DNA from: Sarcomyxa edulis
Taxonomy: Eukaryota > Basidiomycota > Agaricomycetes > Agaricales > Mycenaceae
DNA length: 64,000 nt
NCBI GenBank assembly: GCA_009761415.1
Contig: QUOL01000005.1
Location: forward strand, 2,232,001-2,296,000
Direction: 5' to 3'
Part shown: in pieces, positions 521 through 25,641 of the stretch
Layout of the letters: every line of letters begins with the position of its first letter
Numbering within the stretch: position 1 is the stretch's first letter
Program-made: the position numbers and the translations under genes
Notes under the pieces: generated by a model
Database searches by the model: none
What the model saw: only the letters and a program-made list of their open reading frames with translations
What the model was told of the DNA's origin: nothing

Positions 521-530
521 GATTTAAAAG

Positions 531-3164
531 GTGTCTACTAGACGAGTTACCCGAGCCCAAACTCGTTTAGCTGAAGCAGAGCTTCAAGCCTTCTCTCAAA
601 CTTCCCGTATACCGCATTTATCCGTCGAATATCCACAAAGCGACCTTTCCGAAGAAACGACTCCGCCCGAATCGTCACCGCTATCGGACGTACCATCAAT
701 AAATCTTGATTGGTTGCCATCCCAAACACCTCCTTCCAACATAGATACCTCAGACGAAGAATTGCTCCCGCGTTCCGTTGAATCAGACACTATTTCAACA
801 GAGGCCTCCCTTACGCCCTCGGAAGACTCGGTTAGCCTAGCCCAGGGAAACGAACCGTCAAACAGTTTACCAGCTGAACCCTTATCTCACCTCCAATTGG
901 AATCTCGAATCCTATCCATCCCTTCCCGCCAAACTTCAACACAAGACCAAACGCAGACTCAGCCGCCTCCTCCGTCTCAGATACCGTTACCATCGAATCG
1001 CATAACCCCTCGAATATCCCAACCCCGAATACAGAAAAACCTTCCAACAATGACGTCAAGACCACCGCCCACCCGGACCAGCAGGGACGCTCCAAAATTT
1101 GATGGTCTCGACGAATCTGTTACAAGGTATTTCGAAGACATAGACCAAGTATGCACGGCGGCTGGGAAAGCGTCGGATAAAGAGAAAATCGACATGGCTA
1201 GGTACTACCTTGGGGCGGAAGACGAATCGCTTTGGAAGGTGGTTACCGCGAAAGACTGGGACGCCTTCAAATCCGAAGTCCGGAAGCTTTATCCCGGATC
1301 AGACGAGAAAAAGAAATATACGCTCAATGATCTAGAGGTCTTGCTTGCAAAAGAAGCAGCAATACCGATTAACACCAAATCGGACTTTGGAAAATACCAT
1401 CGTTCTTTCACCAGGATATCGCATCATCTCAAAGACCAGAACAAGATCTCTGCGAAAGAAGAGAATCGCCTTTACGTAAAAGGACTCCACCCGCAGTTCC
1501 TGGTCCAGCTAATGGCCCGACTAAAAATCAAGAAGCCCGACCAGGAACTCGACGAACCATATATGATCGATGACCTCTACAAGGAAGGCCAACATATCCT
1601 AGGAGGACAGGTTCTTTACAGCGGAACACAGACGACCGGAATGGATCCGGTAGTTAAACAAGAAATAGACGAAATGTCGAGGGAAATAAAGGCGCTTAAT
1701 AGGGAGTTAGCAGCAAGCATGAGTACGTTGGCAGCCACGTTATCAAACATGGGGGCAAACCAGGCCATGTCGTACAATAACCGTTACCAAGGCTATGTCC
1801 CGGCGCAGGGAAGGGCACCTAACCCATTCCTCGATCGATCCCCTGTCCGAAGAACTCAAAACGGTCCAGGAAACGGCTCGGTTTGTGCGTTCTGTTCGGA
1901 CACGTCTCACTTCATTCGAGACTGTCCGAAGGTCGCCGAATTTATCAGAGATGGGAAATGCATGCGAAACATGAACGGAAAAGTCGTACTTCCGAACGGA
2001 GCATGGGTTCCTTCAAACATAGAAGGAACCAACTTGGCTGCCAGAATCAACAGGTACCATGAAATGTATCCGGGATCGATTATAAATGGCGTCAACTTTG
2101 TACGCGATGCACCTCCCCATGCCTCTACCATGTGGTTTGCATCGTCCGGAGAAACTTCTAGTTCGTACTACAAAGAATCAAGGATCGAGGAGATCGAGGA
2201 AGAAGAAGAAGACATCGGAGAAGTCCTAGCAAACGAACAAGCAAGAAAAACCCGTAATGGCAGACCGCTGGAACCTACGGAGAAACCTGTACCTGCTATG
2301 CGAAGGAAAGGACCCCCCGGACGACCTCAGCCGCTCCCTGACGATCCGGTCAGCCAAGTTCCTCCCAAAAGGAAGACGGTAGAATTCGAAAAGGATGCGA
2401 CCGAAGGAAGGAAGCAGGTACAAACTGGTCCGCAGTATAAATTCTCAACGCCGATAGAAGATCCGGAGTTGGCAAAAAGGGTCTTGAACCGATCACTCGA
2501 TACTCAGATATCCATCTCACAAAGAGAGTTACTTTCGCTTAGCCTAGATGTCAGAAAACAGTACAAGGAACTGGTGTCTACTAAAAGGATTCCGACGGTT
2601 GGACGACTCGAGTCGATTAATCCGGACAACATCGACGAACCGGACTCCAGCTATATCCTTCGATACGAAAATCCGAACGGACCGGATGAAGAAATTCTCC
2701 TCACGGGCTCATCCATTGAAAAACTCAGAGTAATCTACCCGACTATCGAGGATGAAAAGGTCGAATGTGTGTTGGACGGAGGATCGGAAATAATTGCCAT
2801 GAACAAGGGACTTTGGCAGAAACTCGGAATACACTTGAGACCGGACCATAAAATCACTATGGAATCGGCCAATAGCCAGCACGACACGACTGCGGGACTT
2901 ATCGAGGACCTTAAATTTAATATCGGAGGACTCGAAATCTATCTGAAGGTCCATGTGGTGGAAAACGCTCCGTTCGAAATACTAATGGGACGACCATTCT
3001 TTAAACTAACGGGATGCGTTACCAAGGACTACACGACCGGAAACCAGGACCTGACCTTGACCTGCCCTAATACAGGGAAGGTTGTCACAGTTCCAACGTT
3101 CGTCAAACCAAAACGATCTTCACCGACGTCGGTGGGTTTTCGCCCGGTCGGAGGCCGTCAGTAG
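531..3164 (+). CDS. gag-pro: Gag-protease polyprotein (Ty3/gypsy)
   Basis: This 877-codon frame is open from just after the primer-binding site to a TAG. Residues 1-173 are rich in Ser, Thr, Pro and Gln. A capsid-like region starts near residue 184 (RDAPKFDG). A zinc knuckle C-X2-C-X4-H-X4-C lies at residues 452-465. A retropepsin domain follows, with the active-site segment VLDGGSE (Asp at about residue 749) and the later ILMGRPFF segment. The usual Asp-Ser/Thr-Gly is Asp-Gly-Gly here. The frame begins with GTG at 531 because an in-frame TAA lies at 525; the first ATG is at 1050 (residue 174). Translation may therefore start at 1050, at a non-AUG codon, or after splicing. The product would form virus-like particles and process the polyprotein. 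Confidence 0.88.
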   Translation: MSTRRVTRAQTRLAEAELQAFSQTSRIPHLSVEYPQSDLSEETTPPESSPLSDVPSINLDWLPSQTPPSNIDTSDEELLPRSVESDTISTEASLTPSEDSVSLAQGNEPSNSLPAEPLSHLQLESRILSIPSRQTSTQDQTQTQPPPPSQIPLPSNRITPRISQPRIQKNLPTMTSRPPPTRTSRDAPKFDGLDESVTRYFEDIDQVCTAAGKASDKEKIDMARYYLGAEDESLWKVVTAKDWDAFKSEVRKLYPGSDEKKKYTLNDLEVLLAKEAAIPINTKSDFGKYHRSFTRISHHLKDQNKISAKEENRLYVKGLHPQFLVQLMARLKIKKPDQELDEPYMIDDLYKEGQHILGGQVLYSGTQTTGMDPVVKQEIDEMSREIKALNRELAASMSTLAATLSNMGANQAMSYNNRYQGYVPAQGRAPNPFLDRSPVRRTQNGPGNGSVCAFCSDTSHFIRDCPKVAEFIRDGKCMRNMNGKVVLPNGAWVPSNIEGTNLAARINRYHEMYPGSIINGVNFVRDAPPHASTMWFASSGETSSSYYKESRIEEIEEEEEDIGEVLANEQARKTRNGRPLEPTEKPVPAMRRKGPPGRPQPLPDDPVSQVPPKRKTVEFEKDATEGRKQVQTGPQYKFSTPIEDPELAKRVLNRSLDTQISISQRELLSLSLDVRKQYKELVSTKRIPTVGRLESINPDNIDEPDSSYILRYENPNGPDEEILLTGSSIEKLRVIYPTIEDEKVECVLDGGSEIIAMNKGLWQKLGIHLRPDHKITMESANSQHDTTAGLIEDLKFNIGGLEIYLKVHVVENAPFEILMGRPFFKLTGCVTKDYTTGNQDLTLTCPNTGKVVTVPTFVKPKRSSPTSVGFRPVGGRQ
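3134..3140 (+). promoter_or_regulatory. Candidate -1 ribosomal frameshift heptamer G GGT TTT
   Basis: In the gag-pro frame the codons read GTG GGT TTT, so the bases G GGT TTT fit the canonical X XXY YYZ pattern. The heptamer lies 21 bases before the gag-pro TAG. The pol frame is -1 relative to gag-pro and is open from 3071, so the two frames overlap by 94 bases that include the heptamer. A slip here would make a Gag-Pro-Pol fusion without a pol ATG. A downstream stem or pseudoknot was not computed. Confidence 0.6.
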
Positions 3165-6100
3165 TCGAGACGAACCTTCGAAAAAGCATATCGGTCAAGT
3201 ATTTTACGGTGACCGACGATACCCAGACTGCTGAAATTAACGATCATAATGTAACAACGAACTCGACGACACGATTTTCCCCTTCCAGACTGGGCCACCC
3301 AGCAAGTAACATATTTACCGGAACGCACTACGAAAACACGGAAACGGAGGGAGCGGAGCAAACCCTCAACCAGCCCTCATGTGAAAATTGTATACTAAAT
3401 GAAAATACGCAATGCCTGACGCTTTCGGACAACAAAATACCGCAGAAGAAAAAGAAGGGGAAGAAGTACAAACCGGTAGATAAAAGGACCCAACCGGTCG
3501 CTGCTACGCTACCAGAGGAATACAGGATAGTACGAAAGTTCCCGTCGGACCCGCTGGAAACGCTGCCTGAGCTACCAACACGTCCACCGCGATTCGAACC
3601 GGGCACGAGATATACGATGGAAAGGATGATGGAACAGAATATCAACCCGGACGGCTTTCTATGGCCTGAGGAAGAAAAACTAGTCCATCATATAATCAAA
3701 ACGCACGAAATGGCGTTCGCCTGGAACGAGATGGAAAAGGGCCACTTCAGATCGGACTACTTCGAACCGATTAAGCTCCCAGTTCTCGAACACACCCCTT
3801 GGAGCTATAAAAACATTCCGATACCACCGGGGATACGAGATAAGGTGGTACAGGCAGTTAAAGACAAGATAGCGGCAGGAGTATATGAACCATCGAATTC
3901 ATCATACAGGTCGAGGTGGTTCTGCGTGCCAAAGAAGGATGGGGTATCGTTAAGGATTGTGCATGACTTACAGCCTCTTAATGCTGTAACGATAAAGGAC
4001 GCGGGCTGCCCGCCGATCGTCGAAGTCTATGCGGAATCCTTCGGTGGGGCCACGATATATGGAATGTTCGATCTGTTTGTGGGATTCGACCACAGAATCC
4101 TCGCTATACCTTCAAGGGATCTTACGACGTTCCAAACGCCGATGGGCACTTTTAGGCTAACAAGGCTTCCACAAGGATACACTAACTCGGTCCAGATACA
4201 ACAGGGTGATGTTTCATTCATTCTGCAAGACGAGATTCCGAGCATCACACAACCGTTCGTGGACGATTGTCCGGTGAAGGGACCAGCAACGTACTACCAA
4301 TCGGAAACTGGGGAATACGAGACAATACCAGACAACCCAGGGATAAGGAGATTCGTGTGGGAACACCTGGTGAATGTCAATCGAATCATTCACCGAATAA
4401 GGCATGCAGGAGGAACGTTCAACGCCAAGAAATCATTTTTGGCAGTACCATCGGTTGTCATCGTTGGCCACCGCTGTAACGTGCATGGCAGGGTCCCGGA
4501 TGAAACAAAGGTTCAGAAAATCAAAGATTGGCCACCCTGCGAAGATTTAACAGATGTCCGAGCCTTCCTAGGAACGCTCGGACTAATGAGGATCTTCATA
4601 AAGAACTTCTCGCTACATGCGCGGCCGCTGGTCATGCTTACACGAAAGGATGTCGATTTCGTCTTCGGATTGCCACAGATAAAAGCCATGGAAACGCTCA
4701 AACATCTCTTAATAACCTCTCCGGCACTCCGAGCGATAGATTACCACTCGGAAAGGATGGTATATCTAGTTGTTGATTCATCTTGGAGGGCGATGGGCTG
4801 TGTCCTGCTGCAGCTCGGACAAGATGGGATCGAATATCCGTCTAGATTTGGCTCTATTACGTGGAATGAACGCGAGCAAGGATACTCCCAGGCAAAAATC
4901 GAACTCTATGGCTTATTCAGGGCCCTCAGGGCTTATAGGCTATACATAGTCGGGGTTAAAAACCTGACGGTCCGAACAGATGCGAAATATATCAAAGGAA
5001 TGCTAAATAATCCGGATATACAACCTAATGCGGCTATCAATAGATGGATAGCAGCTATCCAGCTATTCACGTTCAAACTAGAACACATTCCAGGAACGGC
5101 GATGGGGCCGGCGGACGGTCTATCTAGACGACGAAAGGCCCCGGAAGACTCGGAAGAGGAAGACGACGTCGAAGAATGGATCGATAGGGCGTGCGGATTT
5201 TCGGTCGAAATGCTAAACTGGAACGATAACAGAGCTCGGTCAATATTGGATACGGTGCCGCCTCATCGATTAATGATAAATGAGCGCGATTTCCCTGAAG
5301 CAATAGCAAAGGCGTATTTCGCCTCGCTACCTGACCGAAGAAGAGAAGTATCGGCAGTCCTTATTGGCGAAGTTGTCCCGAACGTGGTTATTCCCCAGTC
5401 AACTCTTGCTATCAAACAAGACGAGGAACTTGTACGAATAACTGAGTACCTTGAAACAGCGAGCAGGCCCGAAGGATTGTCCGATAAACAATTCAAAGCG
5501 TTTATGAAGAAAGCGGCTCACTTCTTTGTCCTGAATGGGCAATTATGGAGAAAGGACAGACAGCTAAAACACAAAATCGTACTTCCACCGGAGAAGAGGA
5601 TTCAAATGATGTCCGAGCTCCACGATAAATTCGGCCATAAAGCGACTTGGACAACGAAGGTCAGGCTGATGGATAGGTTTTGGTGGCCAAGTATGAGCAG
5701 AGATGTGTCCTGGTTCGTCAGGACATGTCACCAATGCCAACTCCGAAACAGTTCGAAGATACACATTCCTCCGACCGTGGCGGTTCCGTTTCCGCTATTC
5801 GGGAAAATTTACATGGACACAATGCACCTTCCTACAGTTGATGGCTTTCATGTGATTGCTCATGGACGATGCTCGCTCAGCTCATATCCGGAGTGGAGAA
5901 TGCTGAAAAATGAGAGTGCTATTAATCTGGCCAGCTTCATCTTCGAAGATGTCCTATGCAGATGGGGAAGTATAATGGAGATCGTCACGGACAATGGGAA
6001 ACCTTGGGTCAAAGCGGTCGATCACCTCAAAAAGCAGTACGGAATCAATCATATACGAATTTCGGGTTATAATTCACAAGCGCAAGGGGTCATCGAGCGA

Positions 6101-6913
6101 AAGCATTACGATGTCCGAGAATCGCTCATTAAGTCGTGCGATGGGAACCAGTCGATTTGGCCGAAAGCAGCGCACGCTATATTCTGGGCCGAGCGGATTA
6201 CAATTCAGAAATCCACGGGGTATTCGCCATATTACATAGCGCACGGTGTCCAGGCGATACATCCGTTTGATTTGGAACAGTCAACGTACATGCACCCGTT
6301 CATCGACGAAGAAATGGACTTCGGAGAACTCATAACGCGAAGAGCGATGAAGCTTCAAAGACGGGAAAAGGAGCTATCCAAAATACAGAGAGACAAGTAT
6401 AAGGCTAGGCTCGAGTCGGCGGAGCAGTTCTTGAAAAAATATGAAGGACAGATTTACGACTTCAAGTTTGCCCCGGGCAGGCTTGTACTCATCAGAAACA
6501 CAAGGATCGAGAAGGAGCTGAATAACAAGATGAAGCCCCGATATATAGGTCCGATGGTTGTCGTCCGACAAACGAAGTCGGGGAGTTATATACTCTCCGA
6601 AGTCAATGGTGCGATCGCGGAACATCGCTTTGCGGCGCACCGATTGGTACCCTACTTCAGGAGGAACGAAATCACTATTCAAGTCACGACTCTAGTGGGT
6701 AAAACTACGAAACAGCTGGATGACATGGCGGATGATGATACACCGGACGAGTACAGCTTGGTGGAGCCAGGGGACGATTCTCTACCAGGGACATACAGGA
6801 CGAGACTTTGGCAGTTTCCTAGAAGACCGGAGCACGAGGGCACGACACTAATACCGGAGCAGATGGGGCGGGGCGAACGTAGGACCAGCGAGGCAACGAA
6901 AAAGACTTTTTGA
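3140..6913 (+). CDS. pol: Pol polyprotein: reverse transcriptase, RNase H, integrase
   Basis: The -1 frame is open from 3071 to TGA at 6911-6913 with no stops. No ATG is suitably placed for a start, so I place the start at the putative frameshift site. In order, reading from 3209, there is an RT core with LRIVHDLQPLN near 3950, FDLFVGFDHR near 4070 and the catalytic FVDD at 4256-4267. RNase H follows from about 4755 (VYLVVDSS, then TDAKYIKG and ADGLSRR). The integrase has an H-X-H...C-X2-C zinc finger (5620-5740), then the DDE core with Asp near 5815, TDNG near 5988 and the Glu of VIERK near 6092. A GPY/F-like module (RYIGPMVVVRQ) lies near 6540. The C-terminus is charged and lacks a recognisable chromodomain. 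All catalytic residues are present, so the enzyme could be active. Confidence 0.92.
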   Translation, partial: SPGRRPSVVETNLRKSISVKYFTVTDDTQTAEINDHNVTTNSTTRFSPSRLGHPASNIFTGTHYENTETEGAEQTLNQPSCENCILNENTQCLTLSDNKIPQKKKKGKKYKPVDKRTQPVAATLPEEYRIVRKFPSDPLETLPELPTRPPRFEPGTRYTMERMMEQNINPDGFLWPEEEKLVHHIIKTHEMAFAWNEMEKGHFRSDYFEPIKLPVLEHTPWSYKNIPIPPGIRDKVVQAVKDKIAAGVYEPSNSSYRSRWFCVPKKDGVSLRIVHDLQPLNAVTIKDAGCPPIVEVYAESFGGATIYGMFDLFVGFDHRILAIPSRDLTTFQTPMGTFRLTRLPQGYTNSVQIQQGDVSFILQDEIPSITQPFVDDCPVKGPATYYQSETGEYETIPDNPGIRRFVWEHLVNVNRIIHRIRHAGGTFNAKKSFLAVPSVVIVGHRCNVHGRVPDETKVQKIKDWPPCEDLTDVRAFLGTLGLMRIFIKNFSLHARPLVMLTRKDVDFVFGLPQIKAMETLKHLLITSPALRAIDYHSERMVYLVVDSSWRAMGCVLLQLGQDGIEYPSRFGSITWNEREQGYSQAKIELYGLFRALRAYRLYIVGVKNLTVRTDAKYIKGMLNNPDIQPNAAINRWIAAIQLFTFKLEHIPGTAMGPADGLSRRRKAPEDSEEEDDVEEWIDRACGFSVEMLNWNDNRARSILDTVPPHRLMINERDFPEAIAKAYFASLPDRRREVSAVLIGEVVPNVVIPQSTLAIKQDEELVRITEYLETASRPEGLSDKQFKAFMKKAAHFFVLNGQLWRKDRQLKHKIVLPPEKRIQMMSELHDKFGHKATWTTKVRLMDRFWWPSMSRDVSWFVRTCHQCQLRNSSKIHIPPTVAVPFPLFGKIYMDTMHLPTVDGFHVIAHGRCSLSSYPEWRMLKNESAINLASFIFEDVLCRWGSIMEIVTDNGKPWVKAVDHLKKQYGINHIRISGYNSQAQGVIERKHYDVRESLIKSCDGNQSIWPKAAHAIFWAERITIQKSTGYSPYYIAHGVQAIHPFDLEQSTYMHPFIDEEMDFGELITRRAMKLQRREKELSKIQRDKYKARLESAEQFLKKYEGQIYDFKFAPGRLVLIRNTRIEKELNNKMKPRYIGPMVVVRQTKSGSYILSEVNGAIAEHRFAAHRLVPYFRRNEITIQVTTLVGKTTKQLDDMADDDTPDEYSLVEPGDDSLPGTYRTRLWQFPRRPEHEGTTLIPEQMGRGERRTSEATKKTF

Positions 6914-7066
6914 TTTTCAATTCACGCTCATCCGGCTTATTTAACAAATATGGATTCATATTATACATTAGGAAAGTGCCGTTCGGCAAGGGAAAGGTAT
7001 ACAAGGCGGGGATCCGTGACAAACTAATGAAACAAGCAAGAAGAAATGCAAGAAAATGGACTTATG

Positions 7067-7516
7067 TTACAAAAACGCCATTGCGATCTCCTCTTCATCC
7101 GCCTCGTCGATAGCATCCTCGATTAACACGCGATATGCCAAACTAATGTCCTTCATCACCTGATCAATAATCGGGGTCATATGATCGACGACAACGGGGC
7201 TTAGCACGCCGAAAGCAGACGAATCCCTGGCACCATCAAGAAGGCGGGACCTGGAATCGCGAACGACGGCATCCATCTTCTCGCTGCGTGCGATACTGGA
7301 TTCAGACTGCGGTTGAGGATGATGTTCCGGAGACAGGCGAATAATTGGACGCCCTGGGTCGATGCGCGGAAACGGGCCAGGGGCGGCGTTATGAAAATCG
7401 GGACGGGCTGACGAACTGGCGATTGGGCTTGCTAGGATTCTAGCTTCACCAGAGACGTCACTTGAAACCATCTCGGGCTTCTTCAGGACCTTGATGCAAC
7501 CGGTAGCGCGAGCCAT
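7067..7516 (-). CDS. Antisense gene G: hypothetical 149-aa protein in the retroelement
   Basis: The ORF begins with ATG at 7516 and ends with TAA, 153 bp beyond the convergent pol stop. The N-terminal two thirds are rich in Ser, Pro and Arg and look disordered. The last 40 residues (SPVVVDHMTPIIDQVMKDIS, then an acidic DEADEEE run) could form helices. I recognise no family. A weaker TATAAT lies about 36 bp upstream, but a good 3' splice site (CCCTTTTTAG at about 7525) also precedes the ATG, so this may be the last exon of gene F rather than a separate gene. Confidence 0.45.
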   Translation of the reverse strand: MARATGCIKVLKKPEMVSSDVSGEARILASPIASSSARPDFHNAAPGPFPRIDPGRPIIRLSPEHHPQPQSESSIARSEKMDAVVRDSRSRLLDGARDSSAFGVLSPVVVDHMTPIIDQVMKDISLAYRVLIEDAIDEADEEEIAMAFL

Positions 7517-7675
7517 TGATTCGCCTAAAAAGGGAAATTTCTACGGTTTCAATTATACCCGTCGCCCTGAAGAAAAGGCTTACTGAGATTATCTTCTCCA
7601 TCTGCGAGACTGCAAACGGATTGCTTTCCTTCGCAGAAGTCGCAAGGCCGAGATCTGAAACCGAGGCAAGGAACA

Positions 7676-8533
7676 TCATCGCGAATACATTCGGAGCATC
7701 GGTAGTCCTTGAAAGAAGGGAGTCAGCCGGCTAAAAATATGAAATGAAGCAAAGGAAGGACCGACTCTGGCTCGAATAAAGTAGAGACGGTTCTTCCTGC
7801 CTCTCTGATTCTGCCGTGCGGAGGAAAGTGCTCGATGAGCCTCAGCTGCTGGAAGCACGGTGATTCTGGGTACAGGGGAGCCGGTGATTTTTTTCGACCG
7901 ACGGGTAGACCGCCTGGCCTGCTTCTTCCTTGGGGAGTCACTTTCGGGTTCGACATCACTAGTAGCTAAACCATTCGGGCGCGAGCAGTTTTAATAATTA
8001 ACCTACGAGCCCGGGAGGAGTACTTACAAGAATCGGCTGGTTCGTCGCTCGAAAGCTCAGGATCGCAGCTAGCAATAACCATGGTGCGCGGAAGATTATA
8101 CGAAATAGCTTCAAGAATAAAGTCGGGAACGTAGGGAAAATTGTTGATGAACTTTATGACAGAAGAATTCAGCTCCGGGAAATTGTGGAAGCAAGCTGGT
8201 GGCGTGCTGGGATAACCGATCGATAAAAGGTTAAACATCATGGATCTCAATTCCTTCGATGATTTCGTGATACGATCAGGCATTAGCTGCCTGTACACGC
8301 CAAAAAGTGACCCGGGAATTCGTCTAGTGGATACAAGGGCGCTCCGCTGACTAGCCGAGAGGTTTCGTAAATCGACATCGCCAGAGAGGGCGGACAAGAG
8401 AGGTTGCGCAACGGTGCCATCCAGAATATCTGAACAAGATTCGTTAGCAAACCGACATAGACGATGAAGGAGTTCACAAACCATAAATTGACCGGTTGAA
8501 CCTTCCAGTCGACGTACGGGTAGCGGACGACAT
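7676..8533 (-). CDS. Antisense gene F: hypothetical protein with nuclear-localisation-like basic cluster
   Basis: My three-exon model is 8482-8533, 8028-8429 and 7676-7965, giving 247 aa. Intron 1 (8430-8481, 52 nt) has a CTAAC branch site and ends TTCAG. Intron 2 (7966-8027, 62 nt) has a consensus GTAAGT donor and ends TTTAG. All phases fit. Exon 2 encodes a mostly helical region, and its end plus exon 3 supply an acidic stretch (ELSSDEP) followed by PRKKQARRSTRRSKK, a likely nuclear localisation signal. No known family is recognised and similarity to genes A-E is unclear. The start is the least certain part: the frame is also open upstream to 8686 without an ATG, and a TATAAG lies far upstream at 8863-8868. 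Confidence 0.5.
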
Positions 8534-9207
8534 ATCTGATTCCTGACGAAGTGAAAAAGGATACTGTAACGAAAAGAGGTTTCGAGAACAAAAGAACTCT
8601 CCCAGATAAATCTCAGCCCGGATATCTCCAGCCACGTGGAGAGAAGCCGAATCGATTGCCGAAACGATAAAGCCTTTGGTAAACAACCGCTCACAAGAAA
8701 GAAGAACGATGGTCTATAAGGTGGAAGAAAAAGGGGAGGGGGAATGAATTAAAACCTGGAAGTCAAAATACGAACGTCAAATTGGAAGAACACGAAAGGA
8801 AGAAATACGAAGAACCGAAATACGAAACAAGCAAGAAAGAATAGTATGGTTGGCGCATGGGGCTTATAACCTCAAATACGGAACGGATAGAGAGCGACGG
8901 CTCTCCTGTACACAGTGACGAAATACTGCGAAAAGACCACGGACGATAAACGATCGGAAGAAATTGGAAGAAAAACGACTATGCGGGGTTCGGAGACGGT
9001 AGATCTGGCTGGCCAGCGGATCTACCGACGCAGACCGAACCCAATTATGCGCTGATATGATAAAAGTATGCAACTCACGACATTTTACAGATTTACAAGG
9101 AGACCGAGACGCTGGGTCTCACACTATGCAAAATTATGAACGAATTATGCGCCTGTTATCAGGCATTTATTTTACAGAGACAAGGAATCGGAAACTCATC
9201 GGACGGT
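8534..9207. other. Gene-poor stretch between antisense genes E and F
   Basis: On the minus strand this is pyrimidine-rich (repeated TTTCG, TTCTTCC and GTATTTC words), as expected of a fungal promoter or 5' UTR for gene F. It contains TATAAG at 8863-8868. I see no convincing coding region. Confidence 0.5.
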
Positions 9208-10143
9208 CTACAGAATGGTAGTATCAGGTACCGCTCCAGCTCCTCGACGATTAGCCCTTGCCCCTCCGCGACCTCTCCCACGCGTCGCAGCGTTCCGAGG
9301 ATCTACCTGTCCGAAAGCTCCAGGGCCGAAATGAACTTGGTGGAGGCCTCCGAGACGAGGATCGGGAACATCTCCGTGAAGACGGATCTCTTCAAAGCCC
9401 TCTTTCACAGGAAACCTCGCGACGAAGGGGACAAGAGGATATTGAGGAGCAGGAAGAATAGGATTGGGAACGAAAGCCGCCCGCAATCTGAGCAGGTCAT
9501 TAACTTGCTGCTGCTTCATTTCGGGAAGCACGCCGTACACGTTGTACGCATTGGACGACTCAAATCCATCGAAATCCAGGGCGGTTCCGACGTATCCGAC
9601 CTAGAAAAGGACGAAAAGAGATAAATCAACGAAGGATGAGAACCAAGAAATATGTAAAACGTGCCTGGGCAACCATCTCGCTCTTCACCGACGACAAAAG
9701 ATACCCAACGTTCCTAACGTTGACCGCAACGTAGTCCCCCTCGAAACCAAAGTTCTTCAGAAAGAACTCGAGCATGGCAACGGTAGTGGTGGCTTGAGCG
9801 GGAATTGGAATGGTATCCCAAGAGCCTGATTTAATGGCCTCGGAGGCTCGGAGTTTCATAGCTTGATGCTGGACGGACGATGTTGAAAGAGGAACGATGA
9901 AGGAAAAACAAGCGAGCCGCTTACTACGTAATTGACGATCCGGGTGAGGAGGGTCCTGACCCAGAGCCTTTCCTCGAGAGGAACGTCCGTCGGACACCTC
10001 CCATTAACGGAGAGATGAACGATGCCTAGGAGGCTACGAATTGACCGAGACCAGATGGTGGTCGGAGACCTCTCATTTTCGAGGTCGGGATCCTGGGGAT
10101 TTTCGGGAAAGCGATTTGCAGACAAACGGAGAATAAAGGACAT
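9208..10143 (-). CDS. Antisense gene E: member of the retroelement-borne paralogue family, RGG-like tail
   Basis: The model has three exons (9928-10143, 9665-9868, 9208-9600) encoding 270 aa. Intron 1 (9869-9927, 59 nt) is phase 0 and lies where genes A-D have theirs. Intron 2 (9601-9664, 64 nt) would be a GC-AG intron (CAG|GCACGT ... TTTTCTAG), the only donor that keeps the frame. Exon 1 has the family segment RSIRSLLGIVHL and ends TRIVNY. Exon 2 carries the IPIPAQATTTVAMLEFFL segment, equivalent to the PSE segment of the relatives. The C-terminus is Gly/Arg-rich (ATRGRGRGGARANRRG), suggesting nucleic-acid binding by analogy only. A TATATAAAC sequence lies 52 bp before the ATG. It is the most diverged of the five paralogues. 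Confidence 0.6.
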
Positions 10144-10194
10144 CGTTGATGGAACTTTACTGACTTAAGGATCAGAGCAAACGATTCGGGGAGG

Positions 10195-10200
10195 TTTATA
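10195..10200 (-). promoter_or_regulatory. TATA box of antisense gene E
   Basis: The minus strand reads TATATAAACC, 52 bp upstream of the gene E ATG and only 45 bp after the stop codon of gene D. Confidence 0.6.
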
Positions 10201-10244
10201 TATGCAGACTACAATAAGTGGCATATGATTCTGGGAGCGTTACT

Positions 10245-10963
10245 TTACTCCGTCGTTTCCTCCTCCGACCCTGGCCAGTCCTCTGCGTCGCTATATCCTG
10301 CACCTTCGGACTCCCCCTCGACTACGACAACGCGCTTAGGTACGACCCTTTCGAGGAGATCGAGACGGATCGATCTGGTCATCGCGCTTTCCAACGCGGC
10401 AACCCCGGGCTTCTCGTACTCCGGCCAATCGAAGGCATCTTCAGCCGACGCGTAAGCTGCCAGGGCGCGTATGCTAAGCTCGGTAAGAGCTCGGACGGCT
10501 TCGACCTCCCAATGAATGGGGCTTGCTGGCTGAATTCGGACAGCCCGACAAATCAAGCGCAAATGGCTGATCGTTCTATTCATCTCGGACGGAATCGTGT
10601 ATAATCGTCTGTCCTGCTTGTTCAGGCCCTGCCACTGGCTGTGGAAGTGGACCTGTTACCGATCAAGTGAAAACCCGTTAAACGATAAGATCGATAAGGG
10701 TCGAGTTTAGACCAACGTACCGCGAGGAGCAACACGATTTGCGCATTGCAGTAGTAGGGAACCCTCTCGCGACCAGTTAAAGCTACAAAGTAGCCATCGG
10801 GCCCGAGTTCACGGAATATAAAATCAGCAACGAGGCCGACAGCGGGGCGCAGGAGGCACCTGAGATAGTGAATCATTCCGTCACGATCAAGGATATCGAA
10901 CGTTGCTGCCTCTTGGGCAAGAGTGTTCAAAAGGACTTGGTGTAGGGGTTCCATAATTTTCAT
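10245..10963 (-). CDS. Antisense gene D: paralogue family member
   Basis: Two exons (10721-10963 and 10245-10652) flank a 68-nt phase-0 intron (10653-10720) with donor GTACGT and acceptor GTAACAG, giving 216 aa. Starting at the second ATG (10954, MEPLHQVL) would match gene A (MDPIAKEL) better. Exon 1 has the family core MIHYLRCLLRPAVGLV. Exon 2 has IPSEMNRT followed by the later DWPEYEKP segment, and it ends in an acidic tail. There is no recognisable catalytic motif, signal peptide or membrane segment. A TATAAAG lies 42 bp before the first ATG. Confidence 0.65.
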
Positions 10964-11004
10964 GGGCTCTGCGGTGACCTGTACGGAGGAATTGATTCAC
11001 CCTC

Positions 11005-11010
11005 TTTATA
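11005..11010 (-). promoter_or_regulatory. TATA box of antisense gene D
   Basis: The minus strand reads AGTATAAAGAG, 42-51 bp upstream of the two candidate ATGs of gene D and 39 bp after the stop of gene C. Confidence 0.6.
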
Positions 11011-11048
11011 CTAAAAATATCGCGCTATTCAGCTATCGGACACCCCTT

Positions 11049-11644
11049 CTACTTGCCCGTACCCTCCCCTGCCAACCGTATCACGAACTCCGGAAATTCC
11101 ACGGCAACTGCCTCTCGGTGCATTACAGGGACGATAGACCAAAGGAACTCCTTCGTTAAATCCTTCCTCTTCACAAGTACATCCTCATCGTACCCGAGCT
11201 CAACTCCGTGATGGATAAGGAATAGCTGCACCATGCTTGCGAGGCGCAACGCTTCTGACGGAACCACGGCCTCGTCTCCTCGGCCAATTGCCGTCACCCT
11301 ATCCCTAAACCGTAGAATGGCATCCTAGAAGACGTAAGGTTAACACTCCGAAGCTCACCGAGTGAACCACGGACGCCTACCAAATGATCCAACACGATGC
11401 GGAACCAGCCTTTCGTCTCGCTCCATATGATTGGTTCAACGGTGTCTCTCGGGGAACTCGTTATAAGATAAGCCGCGTACCCCCGCTCGACGATCTCCAT
11501 CATAGGGCGGAGGCGGAATCGAAGGAAGTTTGTAAAGCCCTCGGTAGGAGCGAAATCCCCGGCAAGAACTTCGGGAGGATGGGCATACGACAAAAACTCG
11601 TCTCGGAGAGCTTGAGTAAACGATGAACTAACGACATGCGACAT
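11049..11644 (-). CDS. Antisense gene C: paralogue family member
   Basis: Exon 1 (11381-11644, 88 codons) and exon 2 (11049-11324) are joined over a 56-nt phase-0 intron (11325-11380; donor GTAGGC, acceptor CTTCTAG), giving 179 aa. The family core in exon 1 is FTNFLRFRLRPMMEIV, followed by TKGWFRIVLDHL just before the intron. Exon 2 begins DAILRFRDRV and has VPSEALRLASMV and a final EFPEFVIRL. It is the clearest relative of gene B. No known domain is recognised; the protein is predicted helical and soluble. Confidence 0.7.
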
Positions 11645-11687
11645 TTTGGCTGGAATAATGATGGCTACCCTGCGCCAGCTGGCGTTC

Positions 11688-11693
11688 TTTATA
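11688..11693 (-). promoter_or_regulatory. TATA box of antisense gene C
   Basis: The minus strand reads GGTATAAAGAAC, 44 bp upstream of the gene C ATG. Confidence 0.6.
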
Positions 11694-11808
11694 CCTCGTC
11701 GGACTTAGGACTGACGTCTCGGACCGATAAGAGGTGTCCGAACGGACTCCGTGCGGCAACTGTTAACCGTTGGATTTTCCGGACCATGCCTTATCAGAAG
11801 CAGTAAAA

Positions 11809-12360
11809 ATGCCTGTACTTCGGTATAGATGCCCACGGAACGACTGCGAATGCCACATGCAAAAGAACACGAGCTGGCCGCCACGTCGCGCCGCTACCCT
11901 GGGACCATCTTTTCGACTATTGTCGCAGGTCCTTGCCTCACCTGATACACTTCGCCGTGTCTCGTTCCTTCGCAAAGATTTCGCAAGATCGCGGTCACAT
12001 CACCCGCACACGTATTAACACGCACAGTCTCAACTGCGCCGTAAGAACAACGACGATCAGGACGCAAGCCACCTCGATCTAAACGGCCATGACTTCATGA
12101 AGCCACTGGCGCTTGACGGCTGTCGGCTTTGAGCGCTGTAGAAATGCAACTGCATCATCTTGAAGAAGAGAACAGCATCTTGCGCCGGCCGAGTTATTGA
12201 ACGGGACGAGAAGATCATCCTGACATCGTATAACGGCGAGGCTACGGAAGAACGAAATGATGACCAGGCCACTGAGCGATATAGCGAAACTGTAAAGGAG
12301 AAAAGCTCTGAAAGCATTAATAACCTCTCTCTGTTCTCATCTCACTCGCCTTCCCTCTGA
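11809..12360 (+). other. Possible sense-strand gene or gene remnant in the accessory region
   Basis: The first frame (ATG 11809 to TAA 12018) starts with a Cys/His-rich segment, RYRCPRNDCECH, which could bind zinc. A second frame (about 12160-12360) is charged and ends at TGA 12358-12360. A third short frame at 12145 onward reads LHHLEEENSILRR, which looks like a coiled coil. Plausible splice sites exist (CGCC|GTAAGAAC, GCTGTAG|AAATG), but I found no single model that keeps all parts in frame. It may be a decayed gene or chance. Confidence 0.25.
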
Positions 12361-12704
12361 ACTTTCCTCTCATCAAGAGCCGCTGACGGAGTTACGAGCT
12401 GTCCGCGATTCAAATGTCTGCGCACAGCGGGTGGAATCATCGGACATCGGTACCCTTTATAAAGGAGGTTGGGAGGCTGCCCGAGACCGTCGTTGCCCTC
12501 CGAACCGACAGTGCATTCCATAAACTACAAGATATTCAAACGCGGGACGCGAAAGGAGTGTTTATCCGTTAAAGTACCAACGACGACAAAACCCCTCGGT
12601 CACATCCAGGAAAGCTTCCCCGCTACGCGTGCGCTCTAAAATGCGAATTTCCGACTATTAGTATCCCTCTGAGGGGCCCAAAGAACGAGACCGACGGCGC
12701 CTGC
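12361..12704. other. Non-coding stretch in the accessory region
   Basis: No supported ORF. A palindromic TTTATAAA lies near 12457-12464 and could serve either strand. On the minus strand a TACTAAT branch-like word and an ATTTTAG follow the gene B stop, which may mark an intron in its 3' UTR. Confidence 0.4.
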
Positions 12705-13290
12705 TTACCAGAACACCAGGTCCTCAAATTCGGGATACTCCTTTGCCCCGCCAGTCAATGAAGCGTTAACGTCGGCCTCATCTTTTAGTGACTGAAGCAT
12801 TTCCCTCCTCTGACCGACGCTGCTGAGGGCCCAGTCCCCATGAAATCCGACCTTGTCATAAACGATAAGACTGAACTCCATCATACGGGATACCTCTGAA
12901 GGAATTTTAAATTCGGCGGCGTTGGCATCGGTCCTGGCCCGCTGACGGTATGCAACGATGAGTTCCTGCGCAGAAGGATTCTTTTAGTATCTCTGCGTTT
13001 CCCCGCTGAAAAACGGTGGAAGCCCGTACAACGTTCTCGACGAAAAACCGCATAAGCCGCCTCGACAGCGTATATTGCCCGATAACGCTATCGGTGTCAT
13101 CGGGAAATGCTGTCACCCTATGGGGAAGCGTCGCCTGGATGACACCGAACATCATACGAAGGCGTTTGCGGAAGAATCCATCGAAGCCCTCGTGCGGATA
13201 GAAGACGGGTCGAATAAAGGACGGGACGTTCAGCGTCATGAAGTAGTCGCAGAGTCTCTCGCGAGCCATTTGCATACTGCGGGCAGGCAT
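12705..13290 (-). CDS. Antisense gene B: paralogue family member
   Basis: Exon 1 (13030-13290) and exon 2 (12705-12965) are separated by a 64-nt phase-0 intron (12966-13029; donor GTACGG, acceptor TGCGCAG), giving up to 173 aa. The reading could start at 13290, 13275 or 13269. The last (MARERLCDYFMTL) gives the family-like start and the usual 51-bp distance to the TATA box. Exon 1 holds FDGFFRKRLRMMFGV and ends RFFVENV. Exon 2 starts ELIVAYRQRA and has IPSEVSRMMEFSLIV, VGFHGDW and EYPEFEDL. Exon 2 has no ATG at its start, so simple ORF scanning misses it. Confidence 0.68.
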
Positions 13291-13319
13291 TTCAATTTTC
13301 AACACGAAAGGACTCGTCG

Positions 13320-13325
13320 TTTATA
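13320..13325 (-). promoter_or_regulatory. TATA box of antisense gene B
   Basis: The minus strand reads CATATAAACGAC, 51 bp before the preferred ATG at 13269 and 61 bp after the stop of gene A. Confidence 0.6.
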
Positions 13326-13385
13326 TGTACATGATGACTGCATGCCCTCGATCACCTCTCCGAACCCTTCCCTCTTCTTGCCGCC

Positions 13386-14324
13386 TCATGCCCCCGACAA
13401 ATTGTTTAGTCCCTGTTCGATAATCGCCGCCCCGCCAATCAAACCGTTCCTCTCCTCTTCGGATAACGTCTCCAAAAGCAGGCGAAATGCCCCGTGTGTT
13501 GCCAAGCTCGCGAGTGGCTGGACTGTACCTCTCCGATCAGCTCGTTGCCGCACCGCTAAAGTGTCAGAATTCTTACCGGACAAGGCCCTTTCTACCTCGG
13601 CCACCTCCATTTCTTCGTCCTCGTCGTCCGTTGCAATACTTATGACGGATATGCCTTCGTCTTCGTTGTTAGCCGGATTCTCTTCCCCTTCGAGGCTGTT
13701 GCCCCTGTCCGTACTAATCGTACCATCTCGATGTACCCTGGGACCGCTGTATGGATGCTTCTTCAACACGGCATGCGCATGGAACCGACCACGCGGGTCC
13801 GCCTCGATGTAATCGAAAGCGACGCCAAATGTCGATCGGCGGGCATATTCTTCTATGAAGTACAAGATAACGTCGATCTTATGTGCCTCGTCCTCGTCCT
13901 GATCTCCGGAAAACCCTACGACGTGGACACATCGCTGCACCTGGTAAACGGCGGTCACTGCTTCCTTGGGAAACGGCTCCGTGGTATCGTCCATGCACCT
14001 CCCCTTCAGTACCCATCTAAGTCTGAGCATGAATACCTTAACCTTCGCAATTAGCACGGACCCCCTGAAAGGCGCGCACGCACTCACCATGTGCTGGCAC
14101 AAGATTTTAACGTGCTTTCTCAACGTGTATACACCGTGACTCGAGAACTCCGGAAGGAGAACGTCTGCCACAGCATCTTGAAAAATGCAGCTGACGACTA
14201 GGTGAACCATGGGACGGATATTGTTACGCAGGTATCCGAGGAAAGTTGCCATCGTAATATCGCCATCTATCCCGTCCAGATCGAGGCAGCGCGTAAAGAA
14301 GAGTTCTTTTGCTATGGGATCCAT
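13386..14324 (-). CDS. Antisense gene A: largest paralogue family member, acidic C-terminal region
   Basis: The frame is open for 312 codons from ATG 14324 to TGA 13386. The paralogues suggest a 51-nt phase-0 intron at 14037-14087 (donor GTGAGT, CTAAT branch, acceptor TTAAG), whose removal gives 295 aa and aligns the start of exon 2 (VFMLRLRW) with the relatives. Because 51 is a multiple of three, the intron is invisible to ORF scanning. Exon 1 has FLGYLRNNIRPMVHLV. Exon 2 has PKEAVTAV and VGFSGD. The extra C-terminal part contains an acidic run (DDEDEEME) and an alpha-helical end. No known domain is recognised. A TATAAA lies 47 bp before the ATG. Confidence 0.65.
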   Translation of the reverse strand: MDPIAKELFFTRCLDLDGIDGDITMATFLGYLRNNIRPMVHLVVSCIFQDAVADVLLPEFSSHGVYTLRKHVKILCQHMVSACAPFRGSVLIAKVKVFMLRLRWVLKGRCMDDTTEPFPKEAVTAVYQVQRCVHVVGFSGDQDEDEAHKIDVILYFIEEYARRSTFGVAFDYIEADPRGRFHAHAVLKKHPYSGPRVHRDGTISTDRGNSLEGEENPANNEDEGISVISIATDDEDEEMEVAEVERALSGKNSDTLAVRQRADRRGTVQPLASLATHGAFRLLLETLSEEERNGLIGGAAIIEQGLNNLSGA

Positions 14325-14370
14325 TTGGCTTGTTACTTTCAGGAAAGCTCTGACTGTCTTAACCTTGGAA

Positions 14371-14376
14371 TTTATA
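14371..14376 (-). promoter_or_regulatory. TATA box of antisense gene A
   Basis: The minus strand reads CCTATAAATTCC, 47 bp upstream of the gene A ATG, between that gene and the polypurine tract. Confidence 0.6.
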
Positions 14377-14467
14377 GGTCCTTGGCCGGTCGTCCTTGCC
14401 CTGTTTCGGTCACGGACACGTTGTTGTGTTTGCCCTCCGGATGATCGACCGGGGACGGTCGATATTT

Positions 14468-14483
14468 AAAAGTTAGGAGGAAG
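14468..14483 (+). other. Polypurine tract
   Basis: AAAAGTTAGGAGGAAG directly abuts the TGTGA start of the 3' LTR. Its position and purine content are those of the plus-strand primer of LTR retroelements. It shows that the antisense gene array lies inside the replicating unit. Confidence 0.8.
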
Positions 14484-15473
14484 TGTGAGGATGCCAGCAT
14501 CCCCAGCCAAGGAATCGACAACTATACAACAACCTACTCTTATGCGACTCCCCAGACATAGCTAACTACAGAGATACTGGTGGTATTACCACAAACGACT
14601 TACTTTTCGAATGACCGGACACTGAAAGACACCAAGTACCCACTACTTGACGGTTCCTCCCCGAAAGCGGCCTCTTCATCCACTCACGAAACGCTAACCC
14701 GCCTTCGGTCACGTCTCAGAACGTTTTGGAATACCTGAAATCACACACGAACAACTTTTCCGAAGGAAATCTACCGCCAGAACCCAATTCCCTATCGTCG
14801 TTTCACCTGACCGAAGGCCCAATGTACTCGATCACCTCTCCGCAGCCCCCTAGATCCTTCGGACAGATCCCAAATCGTTTCAGCAGGCTCCCTTTCACCT
14901 CTAGAAGACCTCATCGAGAGATACTTCACCGATAAAACATTGCCACCAGTCGACATACCGCCAACGTGATGCTTGCTGCCCTGAGCTGTTCTTCCTATCA
15001 AATCGGACATATTCCCTTTACATTGTGATCTCAATTCACACCTTTCCATGCATCTGGACGCCTCGTTAAGACCTCCGTCCACCCTGACCAAGTGGTGCTA
15101 CGGAATATTCTTCCCTCTGTGTTTATCACATGACACAGCACTTGTAAGCGAGGTATCGCCCGCTAACAAAGACACTACAGGTTTCCGCCTAGCAACCCAC
15201 ATCAAATTCACTCTTCTCGGACAACTTTGGCCGTCGCATCTTGGAAAAATCTATCGGAAGCTCCCCATCATCCTGCTCACTCGGACATGTTTCATCCCTT
15301 CACAAATTCACCTTGCAACGCTTTCAGAGAACACCTCAGGCCCTAACCTTTCACACTGAGCGAGGTTCGGACACATCAAAACCAATACCGGATCTGTTTC
15401 ATCATTGGAGATCTCGGGGACCTTGGGATGGCACTCGGGGTGAAGAATTAGGCAAGGACAGGGAAGGAATTCA

Positions 15474-15481
15474 TATATAAA
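15474..15481 (+). promoter_or_regulatory. Probable LTR promoter TATA box
   Basis: TATATAAA lies about 990 bp into the LTR, in the sequence TCATATATAAAGTAGG. This would leave a U3 of about 1 kb and an R-U5 of about 600 bp. No other TATA-like sequence in the LTR is as good. Confidence 0.5.
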
Positions 15482-15692
15482 GTAGGATAGGACATGGAGA
15501 ACGGTAGATAGAACCAGTGTGGACGAGAACCAGAGGAACATACCCGAATCGACCAACTACCCAGTTACTCTCTATAGGAATTCTATCTCTTTCTCATACT
15601 TCTGAAACCGAGACAAGGAACGATTACAGGAGTCGGTCAAAACAAGAGAAAAAGGACTTGATTCAGTCGGCAGTACCACTCCCGGAACAAAG

Positions 15693-15772
15693 GAAGCTCT
15701 CCGGAATCAGTCCAGAGCTGTCCGAAACCCTCGAAGCTCTCCGAAATCAGTTCAGAGCTGTCCGAAACCTTC
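15693..15772 (+). repeat. Tandem 40-bp repeats in the 3' LTR
   Basis: This is the same pair of 40-bp units as at 75-154, followed by degenerate CTCTCCGAA and AACGAACCTA(T/C) words. It lies downstream of the putative TATA box, so it would be transcribed in R-U5. Confidence 0.85.
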
Positions 15773-16118
15773 GATAGCTCTCCGAAGACGTTTTATAAGC
15801 CGTCCAAAGCATCGATCAGCTCTCCGAAAGCTGTCCGAGGCCTTCGTAGGTTTTCCAAGAACGAACCTATAGCTGTCCGAAGCCTCAAAACGGCCTACCG
15901 AGAACGAACCTACGAGTCCGAAGCTTACCTTACACCTAATCATCTCATACCCACCTCACCACCGTTTTACGAACACATTATCCAAACACAAGTCACTGGG
16001 CATTAGGATTTCTCACTACGTAAAATCCCCTCCGAGAAAACGTCACCTTACCCCCTAGAGGCGAACTATAGTTAGGAAGTCTAGCACATCTACTCCTAGC
16101 ACCGCAGTCCTCATCACA

Positions 16119-17686
16119 ACGCGGCCTTGTTACTGGGCTTCGTTGCGGTAGATTCTGATATAAAATCGTGGATGCAATCAGGAATCTGTCGAAAGAAGTC
16201 AGTTAATGAGGCCAATTGAAGTAGTGTTGCTGCTCACAGAGGGAATATAGGCGACGTGATGACATGCCCCTGAATTAGGTTTACCACGGATGTATTTTGA
16301 AAGATTTCCAAAGTACATATATAACGGCCAAACTTTGGCCGTTCCAAAGTTTGCGAGGTGGGTAGAGTCGGACCAAAACATCAAGGCCGCGATAACCTTC
16401 TCCAGCTTACAGTTAGGCTCAGATGGTTGCTTCTGGAGGTTGTTGTGAGCTTTGATCCAAGCGTTCGAAGTGTAAAGCTCATCGTATACGCGTTTTTCAT
16501 GGCCCGTTTGGGGATTAACGTAGATCCGTTTGAACGGCGTGAAGTGGAAGTGACAAGCTGCAACCTCGGAGAACGCAGCTTTGATGACTTCGACCAATGA
16601 TCGATGGTGAAGCCCAGAAATAGAGAAAGGCTTTGAAGGTAAGCCTTTTACACCGGATGGTATATGAATCTCGACCGGATCCTCTTTCCAGCCGTCCTTC
16701 GAAAACGGTGTCTCCTCGTCACCTGTAGCCTTGTCAAGATCATCAATATGCTGATTCTCGCGCTGCGCACTGAACCCGGTCAGATCCGCAGGAACAAAAT
16801 CCGGAGACAGAATTACATCTTTCACTAGAGTGTTTAACTCTGCCTCCGATTTCTGGTTACTACCAGAGTTGAACCAATTCATGATGAGGAATTTCGACAT
16901 GTTTGTGAAAGGCCACGGTGGCAAAGGTTGAGAAGAGGGGAGATTGTTATTGGAAGGGAGCGCATCCGGAGATACAGGTCCATAATAATCCGCAAGGTCT
17001 TCGGGGTCTACATTTGCATCTGGATCGTAAGAGGGCCGATGGAGATATTCCCGTAAGAGAGAAAACCGGTTGACAGCAGTGCGCACTGAGTCCTGGACAT
17101 GCAGTACAACACGCCGTATGATGGGTGGTGCTTCTGGTGGAGGCGGAAGGGGTGCTGGCACGTCTGGAGGCATGTCTACGAACCTACAAGGCAGGCGGTA
17201 ATTTCGACCTGGTCTGCCGGCTCGTGTCAAGGGGGGTGTTGTACTTGGAACAGGGTCTGGAAGAGGAGGAGACGGAGACGGAGTCCGAGGGGATGGTGGA
17301 TCGACATGCATGGGATGCACTGGGTCCTGACTCGGGAGGGTAGAAGTAGAGGCATCATGGGATGACTCGGACTATTTATCAAAATTCTAGTGTCAATGGA
17401 TTTGTTTTGATACAAACCGTCGAGTACTCACATTGACTTGAGGTTTCTGTCCTCTAACAGAGCTTGTACCACCGGGACGACTGCTCAAACCGTGGAATAT
17501 TTGATTGCGAGATCTCGAAAGTCCTTGTTTCTCACTTTCGCTGACTCGAGAGTTCAATTTGACTCTCCTTCGTGTAGTGGAAGCCTTTTGGGTGTGTAGA
17601 TATATAGGGCAGACTCTTCGATGCTTCGCCAGAGAAGAGGTCTTGTCAAAAATGCGGTTGCAAGTAGGACTACAGGCAAATCCCAT
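16119..17686 (-). pseudogene. Plavaka-type transposase gene, N-terminal part, interrupted by the LTR element
   Basis: The minus-strand gene starts at ATG 17686 with a zinc finger C-X3-C-X12-H-X3-C (MGFACSPTC...). Exons are 17432-17686, 16238-17371 and 16185 down to the LTR, with 60-nt and 52-nt phase-0 introns. A Pro-rich region follows the finger, then conserved Plavaka segments near the right end of the readable protein (FHFTPFKRIYVNP, VIAALMFWSDSTHLANFGTAKVWPLYMYFGN, CHHVAYIPS then IPDCIHDF). The coding sequence stops abruptly at the LTR border. The catalytic part should continue left of the 5' LTR, outside the window. Until interrupted the frame looks intact, so the insertion may be what killed it. 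Confidence 0.85.
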
Positions 17687-25635: not shown

Positions 25636-25641
25636 CTTGCA

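Follow-up and report, generated by a model that had tools for sequence, protein, structure and literature searches.

The DNA analyzed here, which we call the window, is a stretch of 64,000 nucleotides (nt) from the fungus Sarcomyxa edulis (C36:2232001-2296000, in a genome of 35.6 Mb and 40 contigs). It contains a Ty3/gypsy retrotransposon in which the region from the pol stop to the polypurine tract and the 3' long terminal repeat (LTR), positions 6914-14483, holds six supported spliced genes, all on the minus strand and thus opposite to gag-pol (Table 1). These genes, named g1 to g5 and gZ, are together referred to as the array. The original prediction had placed an intron-bearing, multi-gene array, antisense throughout to gag-pol, between the pol stop and the polypurine tract; the LTR, pol and polypurine coordinates bear out the position, the six supported models the orientation, and the spliced frames, which pass the selection test given below, the introns. 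The number of genes had to be revised. Instead of about seven (A-G) we found six, as the open frames in 7067-8533 join into one gene of five exons and no gene is recognizable in 11645-12704.

Table 1. Features of the retrotransposon and its antisense array, in window positions (aa, amino acids; dN/dS, ratio of amino-acid-changing to synonymous substitution rates; a dot marks features without strand).
Feature	Position	Strand	Details
5' LTR, last 500 of 1635 bases	1..500	+	other 1135 bases precede the window
Putative primer binding site	503..519	+	starts TGG, 2 bases past the 5' LTR; from sequence
gag-protease open frame, stop to stop	528..3164	+	gag-asp_proteas 8.8e-8; dN/dS 0.03-0.05
pol open frame, stop to stop	3071..6913	+	RNase H, then integrase zinc domain (Pfam); dN/dS 0.04-0.07
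Typed block: pol 3' end and gZ with upstream region	6801..8881	.	types I vs II ~16-20% diverged
gZ, 399 aa	7067..8533	-	exons 8533-8518, 8429-8028, 7965-7766, 7707-7584, 7524-7067; dN/dS 0.17
g5, 271 aa	9208..10143	-	exons 10143-9925, 9868-9665, 9600-9208; dN/dS 0.10
TATA boxes of g5, g4, g3, g2, g1	10197..14376	-	first base 10202, 11010, 11693, 13325, 14376
g4, 216 aa	10245..10963	-	exons 10963-10721, 10652-10245; dN/dS 0.18
g3, 179 aa	11049..11644	-	exons 11644-11381, 11324-11049; dN/dS 0.06
Stretch without recognised gene	11645..12704	.	family B has sixth paralogue gX here; stray TATA at 12461
g2, 173 aa	12705..13290	-	exons 13290-13030, 12965-12705; dN/dS 0.02
g1, 312 aa open frame	13386..14324	-	probable 45-nt in-frame intron 14087-14043 at shared intron position
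Polypurine tract TTAGGAGGAAG	14473..14483	+	counterpart in one family B copy
3' LTR	14484..16118	+	1635 bases, identical to 5' LTR
Degenerate ~20-base tandem repeat in LTR	15693..16035	.	unit core AGCTSTCCGAA
Target duplication ACGC	16119..16122	.	partner copy precedes the window

All six gene models hold frame across all of their exons. The ten proposed introns are 45-88 nt long and of the GT-AG kind, with either GC-AG or an alternative GT donor for intron 2 of g5. The g1 intron, at 45 nt, has a dN/dS of 0.64 on few changes, its length not allowing a firm test. In gZ, an N-terminal part is followed by a basic stretch (RKKQARRSTRRSKK), a C-X2-C-X6-C-X7-C-X2-C-X6-C motif and a C-terminal part, and the six-cysteine spacing is seen in both types I and III of this gene (see below). 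A number of other candidates in the region were rejected, namely a second g1 intron near 13576 (the tail of g1 stays in the same frame, with a dN/dS of 0.16), remains of a sixth paralogue in 11645-12704 (none convincing, best E 0.16), and plus-strand open reading frames (ORFs) at 9064-9621, 12988-13809, 13560-14051, 10218-10601 and 10150-10452 (dN/dS 0.63-3.2).

For the dN/dS analysis ten copies were aligned, and the values are pooled. The spliced frames gave 0.110 for g1, 0.021 for g2, 0.064 for g3, 0.177 for g4, 0.103 for g5 and 0.167 for gZ, while the same exons read in shifted minus-strand frames gave 0.45-13.3, the lowest value being that of g5; the corresponding ratios for gag and pol were 0.03-0.05 and 0.04-0.07. 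Since the spliced frames (0.021-0.177) lie so far below both the shifted frames and the plus-strand ORFs, the array is coding far beyond chance, and all six spliced genes are under purifying selection of the same order as that on gag and pol. Within 50 copies of the genes g1-g5 there were no gapped codons and one premature stop, in g1 of the C3 copy, leaving 49 of 50 stop-free; synonymous change in these genes amounted to 3.5-6.6% and amino-acid-changing change to 0.15-0.7%. Length changes in the right block of the alignment were confined to introns or intergenic DNA, and introns and intergenic DNA together differed by 2.35% between the window and the other copies, exons by 1.49%. A protein search with g1 returned 25 full-length matches, 23 of them stop-free. 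As for gZ, seven copies had neither gap nor stop, and the contig at C11:1 starts inside the gene.

Within the family of the window element, the array is also a constant companion of gag-pol. The DNA searches of the genome scored 23 of 39 candidate places for the array and 37 of 42 for gag-pol, and all genome-wide counts of copies are lower bounds. Seven of the 23 places matched the array from base 1 or 15 through to its end. At least 12 full-length gag-pol copies were found, with gZ downstream in 12/12 and g5 in 11/12, the single copy without a g5 match being that of C17, which runs off its contig. All six copies in which both ends could be read, including that of C34 with a deletion in gag-pol, had a 4-bp target duplication of their own (ACGC, GCGT, ACGC, ACGC, ACGG and ACGC), and the empty target site of the C3 copy was readable in locus L044, where it is contained in tandem repeats after an LTR start of a second family (family B, see below). 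LTR pairs differed by 0-2 bases in 6/6, from which we conclude that the family is young. Counting full and array-only elements together, 10/10 paired target duplications were CpG-centred 4-mers (ACGC, GCGT, ACGG or GCGC), which speaks for a strong preference at integration. It is the element as a whole that lies within the 4-bp duplication, and neither LTRs nor a target duplication bounding the array itself were seen. The reading as a nested one-off insertion is therefore rejected: no repeats delimit the array, which is fixed throughout the family. Of the two outcomes that would have spoken against the original prediction, copies with the same LTRs but no array and an array bounded by repeats and a target duplication of its own, neither was observed. 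By their coordinates, the g1, g5 and gZ matches map onto elements of this group or their pieces, and among the matches to these three genes nothing clearly related was found outside such elements. We regard it as practically certain that the array belongs to this Ty3/gypsy family as an integral part under selection.

Copies differ most around gZ. In the block 6914-8880, the window copy and L002-L005 form type I, and L006-L008, L026 and L027 form type II, with DNA ~16-20% apart; L004 is a partial mosaic, and L006 differs by 5.6-8.8% from the remaining copies of type II. In 8881-14483, by contrast, copies are 0.8-3.0% apart with types I and II intermingled (the copy alignment lacks roughly the first 600 bases of minus-strand copies). 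Synonymous divergence between the types is 0.44 in gZ, 0.03-0.07 in g1-g5, 0.05-0.06 in gag and 0.14-0.17 in pol, where it grows toward the 3' end. With a gZ divergence this high next to an intermingled 8881-14483, the pattern indicates that recombination mixes most of the element while the gZ lineages stay separate. Diversifying selection on gZ was considered as well and found unsupported, the dN/dS of 0.16 between types I and II being a sign of constraint.

In some elements gag-pol has been lost and the array kept. A search with the gZ region of one of them, C8, gave at least 14 near-complete and 3 partial places, the other near-complete ones being 81-89% identical to C8. Their gZ, here called type III, encodes a protein ~36% identical to those of types I and II, and after it comes the g1-g5 block known from the window, with 97-98% of its DNA identical. 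Because 12 of 13 array-only matches start at array position 1969, the type III breakpoint is put at window position 8882, between g5 and gZ. An LTR pair 9.87-10.02 kb apart, a spacing too small to hold gag-pol, was found for at least 9 of the 14 near-complete places (40 of 86 LTR candidates scored), and within the scored gag-pol candidates (37 of 42) none of the 14 places had gag-pol DNA, apart from a gag start of 143 bases at C8. The g1-g5 genes of C8 have no gap or stop, and comparison with four autonomous copies gave them a dN/dS of 0-0.31, some of these values resting on very few changes. Of six array-only elements tested, four had intact target duplications. In the other two, those of C3 (L034/L035) and C12 (L040/L041), the two flanks of each element disagree but find their partners in the other element (GCGG and GCGT), as would be left by a reciprocal exchange of these two contigs or by a swap in the assembly. 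Array-only elements would be mobilized by gag-pol acting in trans. In keeping an LTR pair without gag-pol they presumably correspond to non-autonomous LTR elements of the type known as large retrotransposon derivatives, and the one that was read, C8, has also retained its primer site and leader; unlike in such derivatives, the interior consists of a conserved, selected set of antisense protein genes.

The five genes g1-g5 are probably divergent paralogues. They can be aligned over a core, in which they have the position of an intron in common as well as three motifs, one LR-P-M-like, one P-x-E-A and, at the end, one D-[YFW]-P-like. Profile comparison gave a probability of 98% (E 3e-13) for g2-g3, 60% (8.5e-5) for g1-g3, 44% (2.4e-4) for g2-g5 and at most 26% for the remaining pairs; as profile support is thus firm for g2-g3 alone, the paralogy leans mainly on the shared intron position and the short motifs. 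In the same comparison gZ was unrelated to g1-g5. The two sets also differ in their upstream regions. TATAWA occurs seven times on the minus strand of the whole array, six of these matches (corresponding to five boxes) being situated 35-59 nt before the ATGs of g1-g5 and the seventh, at 12461, where the extra gene of family B would be expected; no such box was found for gZ.

Searches of Pfam (all array proteins), NCBIfam (g1, g2 and gZ) and PDB (g1 and gZ) returned nothing above noise. At E values up to 5, neither the models of g1-g5 nor the C-terminal end of the window gZ matched any Pfam family, and the sole Pfam match to the antisense ORFs, including the N-terminal stretch of gZ, was sub-threshold and unrelated. 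Against Zn_clus (PF00172), the type III exon of gZ gave 14.7 bits (E 0.033), below the Pfam cut-off of 21, and type I gave no match. The six-cysteine spacing, with a basic stretch nearby, is similar to that of fungal Zn2Cys6 regulators, from which gZ differs by its score below the Pfam cut-off, and DNA binding is a prediction for this protein. Among 5.8 billion proteins, g1 had two relatives, P0001 (79%) and P0002 (39%), and the N-terminal part of gZ likewise two (37% and 35%). Judged by eye, P0001 resembles the g1 of the window and P0002 that of family B, and for this reason the array probably reaches beyond the genome of Sarcomyxa edulis.

Family B, with a pol ~79% identical to that of the window element, has a collinear antisense array, read in one copy (C12; L029, L030) with splice models drawn by eye. 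The order is g1, g2, an extra paralogue gX, g3, g4, g5 and a cysteine-cluster gene, the latter having a weak match to gZ (23%, E 7e-4), and in C12 the array is closed by a polypurine tract and the beginning of an LTR, both similar to those of the window. Family B-type relatives of g1 and g5 were found at no fewer than eight places each. The g1-g5 counterparts of the two families are ~28-59% identical as proteins, and hence the array evolves faster than pol. A third, more diverged g5 is found at C5:1090500, after a pol at C5:1081876. Another relative, nested in the C13 copy, is a compact 7-kb element with a pol ~51% identical, 277-base repeats and a gag-pol frame of 2103 aa that nearly fills the interior, with no array; the array was accordingly gained within this group, or lost in the compact relative. 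This element (L017:2522-9500) is what interrupts gZ of the C13 copy, and gZ of the C12 copy contains ~6.5 kb of other DNA (L025, about 902-7448), inserted between the window-equivalents 7394 and 7400. A short inverted repeat (GACCGGGGACGGTC-like) lies just 5' of the polypurine tract in the window (14440-14480) and also in family B (L030, near 1650-1700).

The core of the window element is that of an LTR retrotransposon, with a direct LTR pair and a 4-bp target duplication, and the Pfam order in gag and pol, i.e. protease, RNase H and integrase zinc domain (Integrase_H2C2), is that of Ty3/gypsy. Pfam scores are good for RNase H and the integrase zinc domain, while RVT_1 and rve had no Pfam match in pol (3071-6913) even at E 1; the reverse transcriptase and integrase core, whose presence is judged from RNase H, Integrase_H2C2 and known motifs, would be divergent. 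The unit of the LTR tandem repeat contains CCG. In the four LTRs compared, TCCGA occurs 16-21 times on both strands and 10 to 14 times on the plus strand, shuffling giving ~5, and the LTR TATA box is at LTR position 991, upstream of the tandem repeats. Directly adjoining the element, in 16199-17773, are a Plavaka transposase (PF18759, E 5e-17; 16199-17371), as suits a basidiomycete, and an ORF having a sub-threshold zinc-finger match, on account of which the element may have inserted into a Plavaka transposon. Further along the window there are an 88-base direct repeat of 94% identity (21604-21691 and 25639-25726, 4 kb apart) and a tRNA-Arg gene (36777-36864).

Antisense ORFs between pol and the 3' LTR, single or few, have been described in the plant elements Grande (gene23), RIRE2, Retand and PvRetro13 (PMC7264820, PMC11963269), and the TRP28 domain is present in 97% of Retand clusters (PMC11963269). 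TRP28 (PF04195) had no match in the array proteins in Pfam, unlike in the Retand lineage. As far as these descriptions go, the plant elements have one or a few ORFs, to be compared with six spliced genes, five of them probable paralogues, in the window; the word intron is absent from the main texts of PMC7264820 and PMC11963269, and the review calls for a search for spliced transcripts. The closest fungal case is brtn of Boty in Botrytis cinerea and Sclerotinia, as cited in PMC7264820 and PMC8365987, which is likewise antisense, 3' of pol and in a fungal Ty3/gypsy element, and which differs, by description, in being a single gene and in an ascomycete. Of the novelty originally claimed, the multi-gene spliced array stands, but a single antisense gene in fungal Ty3/gypsy was already on record (PMC7264820). 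In the literature covered, mostly titles and the beginnings of abstracts with few subscription papers, no paper was found that deals with an antisense array of several spliced genes, or with derivatives that lack gag-pol and retain such an array. Antisense accessory genes are thus known singly or in small numbers, and the spliced multi-gene array appears to be new. The paralogy of g1-g5, the gag-pol-less elements and the gZ types all go beyond what had been predicted. For gZ, a working model is offered by the VANC proteins of Arabidopsis VANDAL transposons, which are anti-silencing factors whose targets form tandem repeats (PMC5735166). Like these, gZ is encoded by its element and would be a type-specific, fast-diverging protein with tandem-repeat targets (PMC5735166), the likeness being one of analogy; VANC belongs to plant DNA transposons.

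How such an array might work can be sketched as follows. It would be copied via the genomic RNA of the element. As the original prediction had pointed out, the introns of antisense genes are not introns on that RNA, which explains how they survive reverse transcription unspliced; read backwards there, those of the array would stay unremoved. After integration, the TATA promoters of g1-g5 would probably drive their transcription, with splicing and translation to follow, and promoters of their own would permit expression at any insertion site. By analogy, we propose gZ as a type-specific DNA-binding regulator or anti-silencer, i.e. a nuclear factor that would recognize sequences of its own element type, possibly the LTR tandem repeat, and activate or un-silence the element, with g1-g5 as helpers in this step or in mobilizing the RNA or DNA of the element. 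The gag-pol-less elements would retain the array for the advantage that it confers on the copy carrying it, and would borrow gag-pol in trans. The array proteins are taken to favor the carrier element, because they are under selection of the order found for gag and pol, and because the genes are intact even in an element without gag-pol, and from this we infer that they serve the element rather than the fungus. As a whole, a permanent accessory region of antisense genes that serve the element, with gZ as its type-specific regulator, is the explanation that we favor with modest confidence, while we are evenly divided on whether the array mainly serves the element by regulating it or by counteracting its silencing.

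Several observations weigh against this explanation. The Zn_clus match is below cut-off and limited to type III, the LTR repeats are situated downstream of the LTR TATA box and may hence be RNA leader elements, and the count of TCCGA is explicable by tandem duplication alone. The differences between gZ types are not amino-acid-driven (dN/dS 0.16), so that lineage drift fits as well as specificity; among the four LTRs compared there was no sign of LTRs tracking gZ type; and divergence in pol does not sort neatly by type, as the pol of C7, a type I copy, has a synonymous divergence (pS) from the window of 0.155, as far as type II copies. Furthermore, gZ is broken by insertions in the C13 and C12 copies, TATAWA is found at a like place in only 2 of 6 genes of family B, and two AlphaFold models were too poor to give g1-g5 a fold (mean predicted local distance difference test scores of 36 and 50).

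A bolder variant, which we put forward tentatively, is that of a two-component system with the array, and not gag-pol, as its constant heart, where elements with and without gag-pol would share a recombining pool of five helpers and each lineage would have its own gZ, a type-specific DNA-binding factor licensing or un-silencing elements of its kind. If this were true, the array-only elements would be selfish elements of antisense genes alone. Less probable than the explanation that we favor is a role of the array proteins in the packaging of the element, in its import into the nucleus or in its integration, in the manner of Rev or other accessory factors, and not in regulation or anti-silencing. 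A role of this kind would suit the retention of both leader and array in C8, the selection shared in order with gag and pol, and the CpG-centred target preference (10/10 duplications), which needs some determinant; yet the compact relative, with a pol ~51% identical, manages without an array, and gZ, on its motif, resembles a DNA-binding protein more than a partner of capsid or integrase.

The array could also be cargo that benefits the host fungus, e.g. in competition, nuclear or mating-type behavior or defense, and that is kept by selection on host fitness, and its introns and the TATA boxes of g1-g5 are indeed as in host genes. We consider this unlikely, since host selection on each copy should be weak and the genes are nevertheless constrained in a large number of young and redundant copies (g1 has 25 full-length matches), and no clear relative of the three genes searched, g1, g5 and gZ, turned up outside such elements among the matches. 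Less likely still, the antisense transcription itself would be what matters, double-stranded RNA over the end of pol and the array setting copy number and the proteins being secondary, an idea that the orientation invites and that has been raised for plant elements (PMC7264820); against it, the constraint is at the amino-acid level, the splice frames are intact, the five TATA boxes are separate, and no gene model extends into gag or pol. A one-off capture hitchhiking on a successful element, with array-only elements as ordinary deletion derivatives, would agree with young copies (0-2 LTR mismatches in 6/6 pairs) that have had little time to decay, but is hardly tenable, as it is contradicted by the dN/dS values, and as both the excess of synonymous (3.5-6.6%) over amino-acid change (0.15-0.7%) in g1-g5 and a collinear array in a family with proteins ~28-59% identical need long-lasting selection.

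Lastly, LTR retrotransposons are commonly held to need gag-pol alone. The family described here bears more accessory than core genes, keeps their introns through reversed placement, and has derivatives that have dropped the core and kept the accessories. With many intact copies, two families and several gZ types at hand, the role of antisense genes in retrotransposons becomes directly testable, and a fungus of this kind is well suited for asking whether retrotransposons may encode typed anti-silencing systems like those of plant DNA transposons.

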